Shown here: positions 20,682 through 62,755 of the stretch, piece after piece
Position numbering within the stretch: position 1 is the stretch's first letter
Layout: each line of letters begins with the position of its first letter
Source of the DNA: Rhizobium sp. CCGE 510
Lineage (GTDB): Bacteria; Pseudomonadota; Alphaproteobacteria; Rhizobiales; Rhizobiaceae
Assembly: GCF_000292525.1 (NCBI RefSeq)
Contig: NZ_AEYF01000039.1
Coordinates: forward strand, 1 to 64,000
DNA length: 64,000 nucleotides
Direction: 5' to 3'
The notes under the pieces: generated by a model
The model's input: only the letters and a program-made list of their open reading frames with translations
The model's database searches: none
Told to the model about the DNA's origin: nothing
Translations under genes and position numbers: made by a program

Positions 20682-20710
20682 AAACCCGGCAATCCTGCGA
20701 TGCCGGGTTT
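20682..20710 (-). terminator. pckA terminator
   Basis: Perfect 10-bp stem (AAACCCGGCA at 20682-20691, TGCCGGGTTT at 20701-20710) with a 9-nt loop. Read on the minus strand it ends in TTTTCTTTGATT. It lies between the pckA stop and arfB start, separating the two minus-strand units. Confidence 0.85.
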
Positions 20711-20737
20711 CACGTGAGTCAAAGAATTTTGTTGTTC

Positions 20738-22348: not shown

Positions 22349-22458
22349 GGCCAATTCCCTTCGCTCAGGCTTGGTGCCGTTAAACTAAGCGCGAAAATAC
22401 GGGCAGGATTTTTAAAACACAAGACGCTAAATTTGATAAAATGTAGTAATATCAGATA

Positions 22459-22472
22459 TTTAATCGATTTAA
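22459..22472. promoter_or_regulatory. Operator-like palindrome 1 upstream of pckA
   Basis: TTTAATCGATTTAA, symmetric about the central CG at 22465-22466 apart from one mismatched pair (61/70). A central CG with A/T-rich arms is the usual layout of LacI-family operators. Its centre lies exactly 30 bp from that of the second palindrome. The regulator is unknown; a LacI-type regulator of pckA (PckR) is known in Sinorhizobium, so that is a candidate only. Confidence 0.45.
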
Positions 22473-22486
22473 ATTTATTGCTTCCA

Positions 22487-22504
22487 TTTTAAATCGTTTT
22501 AAAA
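22487..22504. promoter_or_regulatory. Operator-like palindrome 2 upstream of pckA
   Basis: TTTTAAATCGTTTTAAAA is identical to its reverse complement at 16 of 18 positions, centred on CG at 22495-22496, about 147 bp before the pckA start codon. It shares the core TTTAAATCG (in inverted sense CGATTTAAA at 22465-22473) with palindrome 1, giving also a perfect 9-bp inverted repeat between the sites. Confidence 0.5.
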
Positions 22505-22666
22505 GACCGCGTTGAAACATTTGGCCGCACTACTCAAGATTGCCGGCGAATTTTGCGACAATCTTTCCCTTTATCTTTGCCACAATTTGTTCCACCTTTA
22601 TCCTCCATAAGCGCATCCGGTCACTGAGACCGCCTGGGGAGAGCAAATCCGGGAGATTGCGCACTG

Positions 22667-28338: not shown

Positions 28339-28366
28339 TCTTATCGTTAATATCCACAAGATGTAG

Positions 28367-59004: not shown

Positions 59005-59861
59005 CAGTGGGCTTCCATATCGGCGATGATGAGTGCACGCAGTGCCGCGTCGACGACGGGACGCCGGCCGAACCATTTCTCGAAGCCGGGCACCGCTTGA
59101 TGCAGCAGCATGCCGAGACCATCGACGATGGGAAATCCCTGCTCTTCCGCCTGTGCCAGGAGCGGCGTCTTCAAAGGGACATAGACGATGTCGGTCACGA
59201 CGGCGTCGGCTGCAAGCGGCGTGAAATCGAGTTGCGGCGCCGGCTCGCCGTCCATGCCGAGCGAGGTGGTATTGATGAAGAGGCCGGCACTCTTCATGAC
59301 TTCCGTCAGTGCTGCCGCCGGATGGGCGTAAACCTTCGGGCCAAAACGATCCGCCAGTTCACGCGCCCGTTCGACGGTGCGGTTGACGACGTGGATTTCT
59401 CTGAAACCACGATCACGGACCGCCTGGATGATCGCCCGGCTGGCGCCGCCGGCGCCAAAGACGACCGCCGTGTCATGCCGGTCCCAGCCCGGATGGCGTT
59501 CGTCGAGATTGGCGATAAAGCCGCGACCGTCGGTGTTCGTCGCGTGCAGGGCGCCATCCTCCAGCCAAAGCGTGTTTGCGGCGCCGAGCTCGCGCGACAG
59601 CGCGTCGGGTTTGTCGGCAAGCCGGAACGCCAGCTCCTTGTGGGGAATGGTGACATTGCCTCCGGCAAAGCCCGAACTGCCATCCTTCATCGTGGCAATG
59701 AAATCGGCAAAGGCCTCGGGTGCTACTTCATGCGCGCGGTAGCTGCCTGGCAGGCCGAGCGTCTTCAGCCAATATCCGTGGATCAACGGCGAGCGCGAAT
59801 GCTTGATGGGAAAACCGGTGACAAACGCTTTCGGCCCGAATGTTTCACGTGAATCACCCAT
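59004..59861 (-). CDS. aroE: Shikimate dehydrogenase
   Basis: NADPH-dependent reduction of dehydroshikimate in aromatic amino acid synthesis. The 285-residue protein has the substrate site [15 protein letters not shown] (about 17-31), NVTIPHKEL with the catalytic Lys (near 76), the dinucleotide-binding [12 protein letters not shown] near 135-146 and NRTVERA (NADP preference). It overlaps maf by 8 nt and abuts coaE, consistent with one operon. Confidence 0.97.
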
Positions 59862-60486: not shown

Positions 60487-61308
60487 TTAGCGCAGCTTTG
60501 GGCGCAGGGCAACGATTGCCGCGGCGGTTTCCTCGATTGAGCGGCGAGTCACGTCGATCAACGGCCAGTTATGGCGGGCGCAAAGCGAGCGGGCATATTT
60601 CAGCTCCTCGGAAATCGAAGCGCGATCGGTATAGTGTTCGCGATCGAAGCCATGTGTGGCGCCGAGGATGCGATTTTCCCGCACCTGGGAAATACGGTCG
60701 GTGGTGGCAATCAGGCAGACGATCAGCGGTTTGGCGGCGACGAACAGGCTCTCCGGCAACGGCACGCCATAGACGATTGGAATGTTCGCCGTCTTGATGC
60801 CGCGGTTGGCGAGGTAAATGCTGGTCGGTGTTTTCGACGTGCGGCTAATGCCGATGATGACGACATCGGCATCGTTGTAATCATCCGGCATCTGGCCGTC
60901 ATCATGATCCATGGTGAAATTCAACGCTTCGATACGCGCGAAGTAGCCGGCATTCATCACATGCTGGGCTCCGACCCGACGGCTTGATGGGGCACCGAGA
61001 TAGATCTGGAACGCATTCATGACCGGCTCCAGCACATTCACCGAGGCAACCCCCATCTCGACGCAGCGCTCATCGATCAGGCTCGCAAGCTCCCGGTCGA
61101 CGATCGTATAGAGCACGATGCCCGGTGCATCGTCGATCGCCTGCAAAACCGGCAGCAGCTGCTTGCGGTTGCGGATCAGCGGATAGACATGTTCGATCGG
61201 CTGGGCGGATCTGAACTGTGCCGATGCGGCGCGGCCGGCGGAGATGAGAGTCTCTCCCGTTGAGTCAGAAATCAGATGCAGATGAAAGAAGTTCGTTCTG
61301 TTCTCCAC
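60487..61308 (-). CDS. ppsR: Pyruvate,phosphate dikinase / PEP synthase regulatory protein
   Basis: DUF299-family bifunctional kinase/phosphorylase that switches PEP synthase or PPDK by Thr phosphorylation with ADP and removal with phosphate. The 273-residue protein has [13 protein letters not shown] at the N-terminus and the P-loop-like [18 protein letters not shown] near 150-167. The start is GTG at 61308. Rhizobia carry PPDK, so a PPDK target is likelier than PEP synthase. It borders the proposed origin; its promoter lies within or at the edge of it. Confidence 0.94.
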
Positions 61309-61393
61309 GTTATTTTCCGCTGCCTGTTGAAAAGACTGGATGAAACAGAGCTAAGGCGGCGAGGCAGTGTCGGGCAAGGGAAAACATGCCTGT

Positions 61394-61402
61394 TTATCCA
61401 CA
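61394..61402 (+). other. DnaA box, perfect consensus
   Basis: TTATCCACA, an exact match to the high-affinity DnaA box. Confidence 0.85.
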
Positions 61403-61435
61403 TTTCGAATTTTGCGGATCGGTTTCTGCTTGCCT

Positions 61436-61444
61436 TGTGGAAAA
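61436..61444 (-). other. DnaA box, one mismatch
   Basis: TGTGGAAAA on the plus strand, TTTTCCACA on the minus strand: one difference from consensus. Confidence 0.7.
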
Positions 61445-61482
61445 TGGGGAACAAGGGGATTTGTCGAGAAGAGGTCCACAGC

Positions 61483-61491
61483 TTATCCACA
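61483..61491 (+). other. DnaA box, perfect consensus
   Basis: TTATCCACA again. A TCCACA half-site ends 11 bp upstream (61475-61480), one helical turn away, which could serve as a weaker box. Confidence 0.85.
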
Positions 61492-61619
61492 AGCACGGGG
61501 AAAATCATCGGTCCGCAAGGATCTGGAATCATTTTCAGATTCGGTTTCTCCCCGGACTTTCGACCAAATGGCAAAATCCTTTTGATGCTTTTTGCCGGCA
61601 CGCGACAAATGGCATCGGC

Positions 61620-61628
61620 GGTGGATAG
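61620..61628 (-). other. Weak DnaA-box-like site
   Basis: GGTGGATAG on the plus strand, CTATCCACC on the minus strand: two differences from consensus, at the edge of the A/T-rich segment. Confidence 0.4.
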
Positions 61629-61708
61629 ATTTTAATCCTTGATAGACACCGACTCTAAGAAATAGAAACCTTTTAAAATATCTTTGATTTTTTATAGGGA
61701 AGAAGCGC

Positions 61709-62755
61709 TTGAACGACACGCGCCGAAAGATCATGAGGGTTCTCGAGGGCGAAAGCCTCTCCCCTCCGCCGCTCTGGCTAATGAGGCAGGCGGGACGATA
61801 TCTCCCGGAATATCGAGAGACGCGGGCAAAGGCAGGAAGTTTCCTCGATCTTTGCTACACGCCGGATTATGCCGTCGAAGTGACGTTACAGCCAATCCGC
61901 CGCTATGGCTTTGATGCAGCCATCCTGTTTTCCGATATCCTCGTCATCCCCGATGCAATGAAGCGGAATGTCCGGTTCACCGAAGGCCGTGGGCCGGAGA
62001 TGGATCCGATCGATGAAGACGGTATCGGCAGGTTGAATGGGGAAGCAGTTGTCGATTATCTCAGCCCGGTTCTGGAGACGGTGCGGCGGTTGCGTGAGGA
62101 GTTGCCAACTGAGACCACCCTGCTCGGCTTCTGTGGGGCCCCCTGGACGGTTGCGACCTATATGATTGCCGGACACGGCACGCCGGATCAGGCCCCTGCC
62201 CGTCTCTTCGCCTACAGGCATCCCCGCGCCTTCGAACATTTGCTGATGCTGCTTGCCGACGTGTCGGCCGATTATCTCGTCGCTCAGATCGATGCCGGCG
62301 CAGACGCCGTGCAGATCTTCGATTCCTGGGCTGGCGTTCTCGGCGCGAGAGAGTTCGAGGCGTTCGCGATCAAGCCGGTTGCGCGGATGATCGCTTCGGT
62401 CAAAGCCCAGCGCCCGCACGCCCGCATCATCGCCTTTGCTAAGGGCGCGGGCTACCAGCTGAAGACATACCGTCAAAAGACGGGTGCAGATGCAATCGGC
62501 CTCGACTGGTCGGTGCCGTTGGCCTTTGCCGCCGAACTTCAGAAGGACGGACCGGTTCAGGGAAACCTCGATCCAATGCGCGTCGTTGCCGGTGGCCGGG
62601 CGCTGGAAGAGGGTATCGACGATATTCTGCAGCATCTCGGCCACGGCCCGCTGATCTTCAATCTCGGCCATGGCATCACACCGCAGGCCGACCCCGAGCA
62701 TGTGCGCCGGCTGGTCGATCGCGTGCGGGGCGGCCAAATGCGAGGCGGGAACTGA
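61709..62755 (+). CDS. hemE: Uroporphyrinogen decarboxylase
   Basis: Decarboxylates uroporphyrinogen III to coproporphyrinogen III in haem synthesis. I place the start at TTG 61709 (AGGGAAG 6-7 nt upstream), giving 348 residues; the next ATG (61733) would remove eight residues of the normal N-terminus. Motifs: [20 protein letters not shown] (about 20-39), [10 protein letters not shown] near 79, [17 protein letters not shown] near 142, and the C-terminal [15 protein letters not shown]. It leads a hemE-hemJ-rho set, transcribed away from the origin. Confidence 0.97.

Follow-up and report, generated by a model that had tools for sequence, protein, structure and literature searches.

The 400-bp gap between ppsR and hemE in the window (the whole stretch of 64,000 nucleotides analyzed here, G000:C39:1-64000) is, judging from its sequence features, very probably the DnaA-dependent chromosomal replication origin (oriC) of a bacterium of the Rhizobium leguminosarum group. 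It is an origin of an already known kind; its hemE-side location has been published before, as has the lack of CtrA sites in Sinorhizobium meliloti. The parts worth following are the comparative definition of a probable opening block at 61633-61668 and the concentration of CcrM sites (GANTC) there across the order.

Gene context of the ppsR-hemE gap

The window comes from a draft of 6.9 Mb in 142 contigs, in which contig C39 has 183,533 bases. Its best-matching named hemE loci are those of R. leguminosarum, R. esperanzae, Rhizobium sp. R635, and R. phaseoli, which suggests placement of the host in the R. leguminosarum group. Pfam matches put a COG1806-type gene on one side of the gap and hemE on the other (Table 1), PF03618 being a family that we take to be equivalent to COG1806/DUF299. 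COG1806 and hemE also flank the experimentally defined Caulobacter origin, Cori (PMC1914354), and the claim of the sequence-only reading that the flanking order is that of the known hemE-side origin is borne out by these matches. As far as excerpts of the two papers go, Cori resembles the gap in its flanking genes, its length of ~400 bp, its DnaA boxes, and its A/T-rich part (PMC1914354), and GANTC sites have been noted there too (PMC3973325). Within the gap, A+T content is 54.5%, against 33 to 43% in 2-kb stretches of the window. Mechanical open reading frames (ORFs) of 80 to 119 amino acids span the gap, and the 64-kb window holds no tRNA and no Rfam match at gathering score.

Past hemE, the genes run hemJ-rho-mnmE-mnmG-rsmG-parA-parB (ORF names by eye; HemJ is PF03653), with the parA- and parB-like ORFs at C39 68805-70507, 6 to 8 kb from hemE. 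Scored against what we take to be the parS consensus, C39 gives an exact raw match at 68188, raw matches with two mismatches at 66192 and 66226, and one with a single mismatch at 107172, besides the site in Table 1. Elsewhere in the window, a parS-like palindrome with three mismatches lies at 20706-20721.

Table 1. Features of the putative origin region, in window coordinates (fractions are aligned origins)
Feature	Position	Strand	Remarks
parS-like TGTTTCACGTGAATCA	59841-59856		one mismatch to the consensus used; 1.5 kb from the gap
COG1806/DUF299-type flanking gene ("ppsR")	60487-61308	-	PF03618 Kinase-PPPase
DnaA-box-like, over ppsR start	61301-61309	+	two mismatches; ≤1 mismatch in 2/73, ≤2 in 62/73
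DnaA-box-like	61325-61333	-	two mismatches; ≤1 in 24/73, ≤2 in 62/73
DnaA box TTATCCACA	61394-61402	+	perfect; ≤1 in 72/73
DnaA box TGTGGAAAA	61436-61444	-	one mismatch; ≤1 in 26/73, ≤2 in 45/73
DnaA box TTATCCACA	61483-61491	+	perfect; ≤1 in 44/73, ≤2 in 56/73
Two GANTC (CcrM) sites	61526, 61538 (61526-61542)		present in part of the relatives
DnaA-box-like GGTGGATAG	61620	-	two mismatches; ≤2 in 12/73
Box-like 9-mer TAATCCTTG, first of abutting pair	61633-61641	+	four mismatches to TTATCCACA
Second 9-mer ATAGACACC	61642-61650	+	box-like by position only
GACTC, near-invariant GANTC (CcrM site)	61651-61655		73/73
A/T-rich tract, presumed unwinding element	61656-61700		second least stable of the window at 40 bp
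A-rich array AAG AAA TAG AAA (two WAGAAN hexamers)	61657-61668	+	middle A near-invariant
hemE, flanking gene	61709-62755	+	PF01208 URO-D; TTG start

Skew of a complete relative and replicon type

GC skew was taken from the complete close relative R. leguminosarum Norway, sampled as 67 stretches of 20 kb (1.34 of 4.9 Mb). After detrending, the cumulative GC skew is lowest at 4.522 Mb and highest at 2.158 Mb, and the homologous hemE gap lies at 4.509 Mb, ~13 kb from the minimum; the extremes of AT skew fall at 4.574 and 2.168 Mb. The position of the GC-skew minimum had been named beforehand as the refutation test, and the minimum was found at the expected place, in the detrended skew of R. leguminosarum Norway rather than in the draft itself. 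When this chromosome is split at hemE with an antipodal terminus, the two halves differ in skew by 0.020 (60 evenly spaced stretches of the 67). None of 491 antipodal splits exceeds this value (ties at 4.53 to 4.57 Mb), and none of 10,000 permutations reaches it, a count that overstates the case because adjacent stretches are not independent. Without detrending, the skew gives no useful extreme. On a finer scale, the joined region reaches its minimum at 4.532 Mb, at a distance of 23 kb from the gap, and by a free two-level fit the origin would lie at 4.28 to 4.30 Mb. The GC skew of the window itself shows no sharp switch within its 64 kb.

Among the marks by which hemE/COG1806 origins are recognized, we find a box cluster (three boxes with ≤1 mismatch in 400 bp), the raised A/T content with a presumed unwinding tract, and, in the complete close relative after detrending, a shift in GC skew. 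A plasmid-type or secondary origin in place of a chromosomal one is favored by the multipartite genome with its seven RepC matches over the cut-off, yet all seven lie on contigs other than C39 (two of them being pieces on C85), and such an origin, which we consider exceedingly improbable, is opposed by the skew, the DnaA boxes, and the order of the housekeeping genes. The genome has a single dnaA match. On C85 (G000:C85:3591-4114), a RepC-family match is split into two adjacent pieces, with five unbroken matches on other contigs.

DnaA boxes and the A/T-rich tract

The perfect boxes at 61394 and 61483 and the single-mismatch box at 61436 (minus strand) that the sequence-only reading had proposed were recovered by our scan at the same coordinates. 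A weak box proposed at 61620 is also present, with two mismatches, but no more than 12 of the 73 aligned origins retain it at ≤2 mismatches. The two perfect boxes are the sole exact matches to TTATCCACA in 64 kb, and three of the four sites of the window with ≤1 mismatch lie inside the 400-bp gap, the remaining one being at 28350. Single perfect boxes are not rare, since the 6.9-Mb draft contains 17 of them versus 28 for the reversed pattern; the special part is the clustering. At random alignment columns, a mean of 2.5 origins carry a box with ≤1 mismatch, which is the baseline for the 72, 44, and 26 of 73 origins given in Table 1. Box positions and gap length are retained across Rhizobiaceae.

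Genome-wide, the 17 perfect boxes include one further close pair, on C15. At this locus (L086 1500-1531, around G000:C15:128620-128639), two perfect boxes stand 11 bp apart, and a GTGGATGA site resembles them; the stretch is intergenic, follows an ORF for an NtrC-like regulator (by eye), and possibly forms a DnaA-titrating or reactivating site.

An A/T-rich run had been reported at 61625-61700 and is real: by nearest-neighbor stability, 61625-61704 ranks as the second least stable 80-bp stretch of the window and 61656-61695 as the second least stable 40-bp stretch. The least stable place begins at 22427-22437. The most A/T-rich stretch of the window, 22427-22506, is located between ORFs for a phosphoenolpyruvate carboxykinase-like protein and a ChvI-like response regulator (by eye).

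A conserved block at the hemE side of the gap

We aligned 73 origins: eight of 80 loci were left out for want of a ppsR match, and the window joined the other 72. The gap DNA is poorly conserved except for the boxes and one block, and this block, at about 61633-61668 on the hemE side, is the best conserved stretch of the gap. The sequence-only reading missed this GANTC-bearing block, which is laid out as TAATCCTTG, ATAGACACC, GACTC, a T, and then AAG AAA TAG AAA. The TAATCC columns of the first 9-mer are kept in 68 to 73 of the 73 origins, and the middle A of the four array triplets is kept in 73, 73, 72, and 73, with changes falling nearly all on positions one and three. The parts of the block stand in exact register in 71 of 81 loci, all 71 with four NAN triplets, by a pattern that takes any second 9-mer and in which the middle A of triplet one is prescribed; with the window's own second 9-mer, the count is 47 of 81.

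As a DnaA box with ≤2 mismatches, the second 9-mer occurs in 5 of 73 origins, against a mean of 5.2 at random columns. It reads CTATTCACC in locus L072 and CTATCCACC in L074. Both 9-mers are poor DnaA boxes in Rhizobiaceae, and their reading as boxes derives from their position and from relatives of the L072 and L074 type. For IHF, 61644-61632 on the minus strand fits a loose 12-letter form, the core letters of which differ in the Brucella-type rows, and the form WATCAN5WTR, as given in the relevant part of PMC1914354, has no match in the gap.

A loose block pattern, ANNGACTCTWAGAANNAGAA, has exactly one copy in 15 of 397 genomes of the order, compared with 0 for the reversed control, and every one of the 15 copies is located between homologues of hemE and ppsR. 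Its carriers are all six genomes of the genus (including that of the window) plus 9 of the 15 genomes from the rest of the family; in that form, the pattern is absent from the other 376 genomes of the order. Three Sinorhizobium loci (L031, L039, and L050) have the gap and block as in the window, with box strengths that differ between S. meliloti-type origins and the window, S. medicae (L039) having one box with ≤1 mismatch. The chromosomal origin of S. meliloti was reportedly described by Sibley et al. in 2006. In two Aureimonas loci (L075 and L081), the block stands 178 to 179 bp before the inferred hemE start, versus about 58 bp elsewhere. Taken by its conservation, the block is likely the site where the strands first part in Rhizobiaceae. 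A partial literature search turned up no description that we recognized of the block or of a GANTC at the unwinding element.

GANTC sites are concentrated at the presumed unwinding tract

The GANTC sites reported earlier at 61526, 61538, 61651, and 61262 are all in place, and one more, at 61248, had gone unlisted. Sliding frames of 400 bp contain a mean of 0.64 GANTC, and at least three occur in 2.7% of them. At 61651, the 73 rows comprise 72 GACTC and 1 GAGTC, and the eight loci omitted from the alignment likewise carry the block GANTC.

The comparison was widened with hemE-upstream stretches from 41 more genomes of the order, presumably Rhizobiales, and 39 from other orders of the class (38 usable). 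Counts refer to loci with ppsR upstream, 32 from the order and 25 from other orders, with 9 of 41 and 13 of 38 omitted; L195 had no hemE match. Between -140 and -30 of hemE, GANTC occurs 154 times in the family versus 55.6 expected (78 of 81 loci, which are related to each other), 57 versus 19.2 in the order (28 of 32 loci), and 21 versus 12.5 in other orders (16 of 25 loci); of 200 shuffles, 0, 0, and 1, respectively, reach these counts. Of the eight 5-letter palindrome types that we tested, GANTC comes first in every set, with runner-up counts of 87, 20, and 6. The counts farther out are, at -260 to -150, 78 versus 46.0 in the family, 15 versus 14.6 in the order, and 14 versus 11.2 in other orders and, at -400 to -290, 18 versus 33.4, 24 versus 18.8, and 13 versus 11.6. 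Set against these bins, in the order the excess is limited to the tract on the hemE side, and in the family it is strongest there. Among order loci with an array, 16 of 21 have a GANTC in or beside it (raw count).

A RAMA-domain (CcrM-type) match occurs once in the genome of the window, in all 41 sampled genomes of the order, and in 32 of 39 from other orders (73 of 80 overall); the seven genomes without one offer a usable gap in only two cases. Five loci (L065, L066, L067, L070, and L071), Ochrobactrum/Brucella-type plus one related, have five GANTC spaced 7 to 10 bp apart at the unwinding tract, ~48 to 115 bp before the inferred hemE start.

CtrA

A complete TTAA-N7-TTAA is absent from the 64-kb window, in agreement with the earlier report of no intact CtrA site, and the S. 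meliloti origin is in print as being alike in this (PMC4433202). The nearest CtrA-like site of the region, with one mismatch, is at 61673 in poorly conserved columns. According to excerpts of the same paper, the S. meliloti origin lacks both the CtrA motif and CtrA binding, and CtrA depletion causes strong genome amplification (PMC4433202); because of this amplification, indirect control by CtrA is possible. A later paper reports unchanged replicon copy numbers and calls the role of CtrA in initiation unclear (PMC11500502), and the CtrA of B. abortus is cited as not binding its own origin (in a passage of PMC2877005). Direct control is ruled out by the missing full site and the published S. 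meliloti result. Caulobacter Cori has five CtrA sites (PMC1914354), whereas the gap has no full one, and since the full site is missing, we do not place this origin in the CtrA-gated subtype.

Polarity of the array and explanations of the block

Abutting 9-mers with ATYC cores recur in the wider sample. In the order, register 9 occurs in 11 of 32 loci, registers 8, 10, and 11 once each, and the rest of registers 5 to 15 not at all; in other orders, four of 25 loci have register 9 and four have register 10, and in the family, register 9 is seen in 6 of 81. Pairs in the order set are often followed by A-rich triplets (e.g., TAA TAA AAA CAA AAA GAA). Four-triplet runs after a box with ≤2 mismatches are found in the order as NAN in 13 of 32 loci versus 0.6 in shuffles and as NTN in 0 of 32; with ≤3 mismatches, the counts are 21 versus 2.9 for NAN and 1 versus 1.9 for NTN. 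The family gives, at ≤2 mismatches, NAN in 15 of 81 versus 1.9 and NTN in 8 of 81 versus 2.9 and, at ≤3, NAN in 57 versus 15.2 and NTN in 17 versus 16.2. In other orders (n = 25), we observe NAN in 6 versus 1.0 and NTN in 3 versus 0.8, or, at ≤3 mismatches, 8 versus 5.7 and 6 versus 3.8. These mixed counts in other orders rule out a clean strand switch between orders.

On the upper strand, DnaA-trios read 5'-CTA-3', and their reversal blocked opening in Helicobacter pylori (PMC8235120). We take this strand to be the one that carries the box. With the basal unwinding system to which they belong (BUS, PMC8287927), as far as it is described in the parts considered, the window shares a box-like site, a spacer of ≤16 bp, and successive triplets that share a constant A, with four NAN triplets behind a box-like pair. 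That the array is a DnaA-trio of this Bacillus-type system is nevertheless very doubtful: its constant A lies on the box strand, against the canonical polarity (PMC8235120), its nearest box-like sites have three or four mismatches, and the order has NAN runs without a single NTN run at ≤2 mismatches, although the polarity evidence is not one-sided, given the NTN runs of the family (8 versus 2.9). Formal membership is ruled out, as no box with ≤2 mismatches lies within 16 bp and the NAN triplets are on the box strand, not the opposite one. The Rhizobium array is better likened to the element of Escherichia coli oriC, because the E. coli box strand past R1 reads CCTAATAAGAGATC; there, too, an A-rich run on the strand of box R1 comes with methylase sites in the tract. 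The E. coli sites are GATC for Dam and those of the window GANTC for CcrM, and a strong R1 contrasts with weak box-like sites here. In E. coli, DnaA grips the T-rich strand at the unwinding element, and SeqA reads the methylation state.

A different account, compatible with oriC at this place, sees in the block above all a hemE promoter whose -10/-35 spacer contains the GANTC, as is the case at GcrA-CcrM promoters. TTGATA (61639-61644) and TAGAAA (61663-61668), 18 bp apart, flank the GANTC (by eye), and GcrA binds methylated GANTC promoters (PMC3667746, in the part considered). Against this, a sigma-70 scan is blank in 61200-61800 (weak evidence, with 0.4 expected by chance and the sigma-70 type only), the block pattern is single copy in each of its 15 carrier genomes, the block of the two Aureimonas loci stands 178 to 179 bp before the inferred hemE start in place of ~58 bp, and box-like 9-mer pairs with A-rich triplets recur across the order; on balance, we regard the promoter account as unlikely. 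We hold it to be still less likely that unwinding is gated by methylation, i.e., that a CcrM mark on GACTC at 61651 alters how DnaA assembles or the duplex opens and thereby lets the origin sense its own replication state, as with GATC at E. coli oriC. This idea draws on the GANTC kept in 73 of 73 origins, on its excess at -140 to -30 in family and order, reached by no shuffle in either, and on the A-rich E. coli box strand past R1 with its repeated GATC. It is opposed by the kinship of the 81 family loci, by a second family excess at -260 to -150, so that in the family the enrichment extends beyond the tract, and by the weaker enrichment in other orders despite RAMA in 32 of 39. In addition, A. 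tumefaciens ori1 shows no significant change upon CcrM depletion or overexpression (PMC11514494), and Caulobacter without CcrM keeps a normal replication profile (PMC3973325), although the latter paper cites an older report of extra chromosomes upon CcrM overexpression; these statements are taken from portions of the two papers. Because such perturbations were without effect, the constancy of the GANTC may reflect another constraint, such as a DnaA contact or a hemE promoter, and methylation control of this origin is a hypothesis.

Proposed working and significance

For the block as the likely first opening site of a chromosomal origin, the anatomy suggests that DnaA would load on the two perfect boxes (61394 and 61483), helped by 61436 and the weaker sites as auxiliaries, and would then extend to the box-like pair at 61633-61650. 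The duplex would open in the A-rich array and the A/T tract at 61657-61700, where the helicase would enter. After each firing, the GANTC at 61651, between pair and array, would stay hemimethylated up to the late-cycle action of CcrM. CtrA does not act at the gap through full sites. A more specific proposal is a Rhizobiales opening module, in which an abutting weak DnaA-type pair and A-rich triplets of E. coli-like polarity are fused to a CcrM site whose methylation tunes melting or DnaA assembly. We think this improbable, and all the less probable since the family's second 9-mer resembles a DnaA box only to the extent that random columns do; if true, such a module would be the convergent equivalent of the Dam sites that the E. 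coli unwinding element contains.

The analysis locates the probable origin in a draft chromosome and, from the comparison of relatives, singles out 36 bp as a candidate opening block. With this block in hand, it becomes testable how alphaproteobacterial origins without CtrA sites open and why a CcrM site stays at exactly this place though perturbations of the methylase have left this type of origin unaffected.
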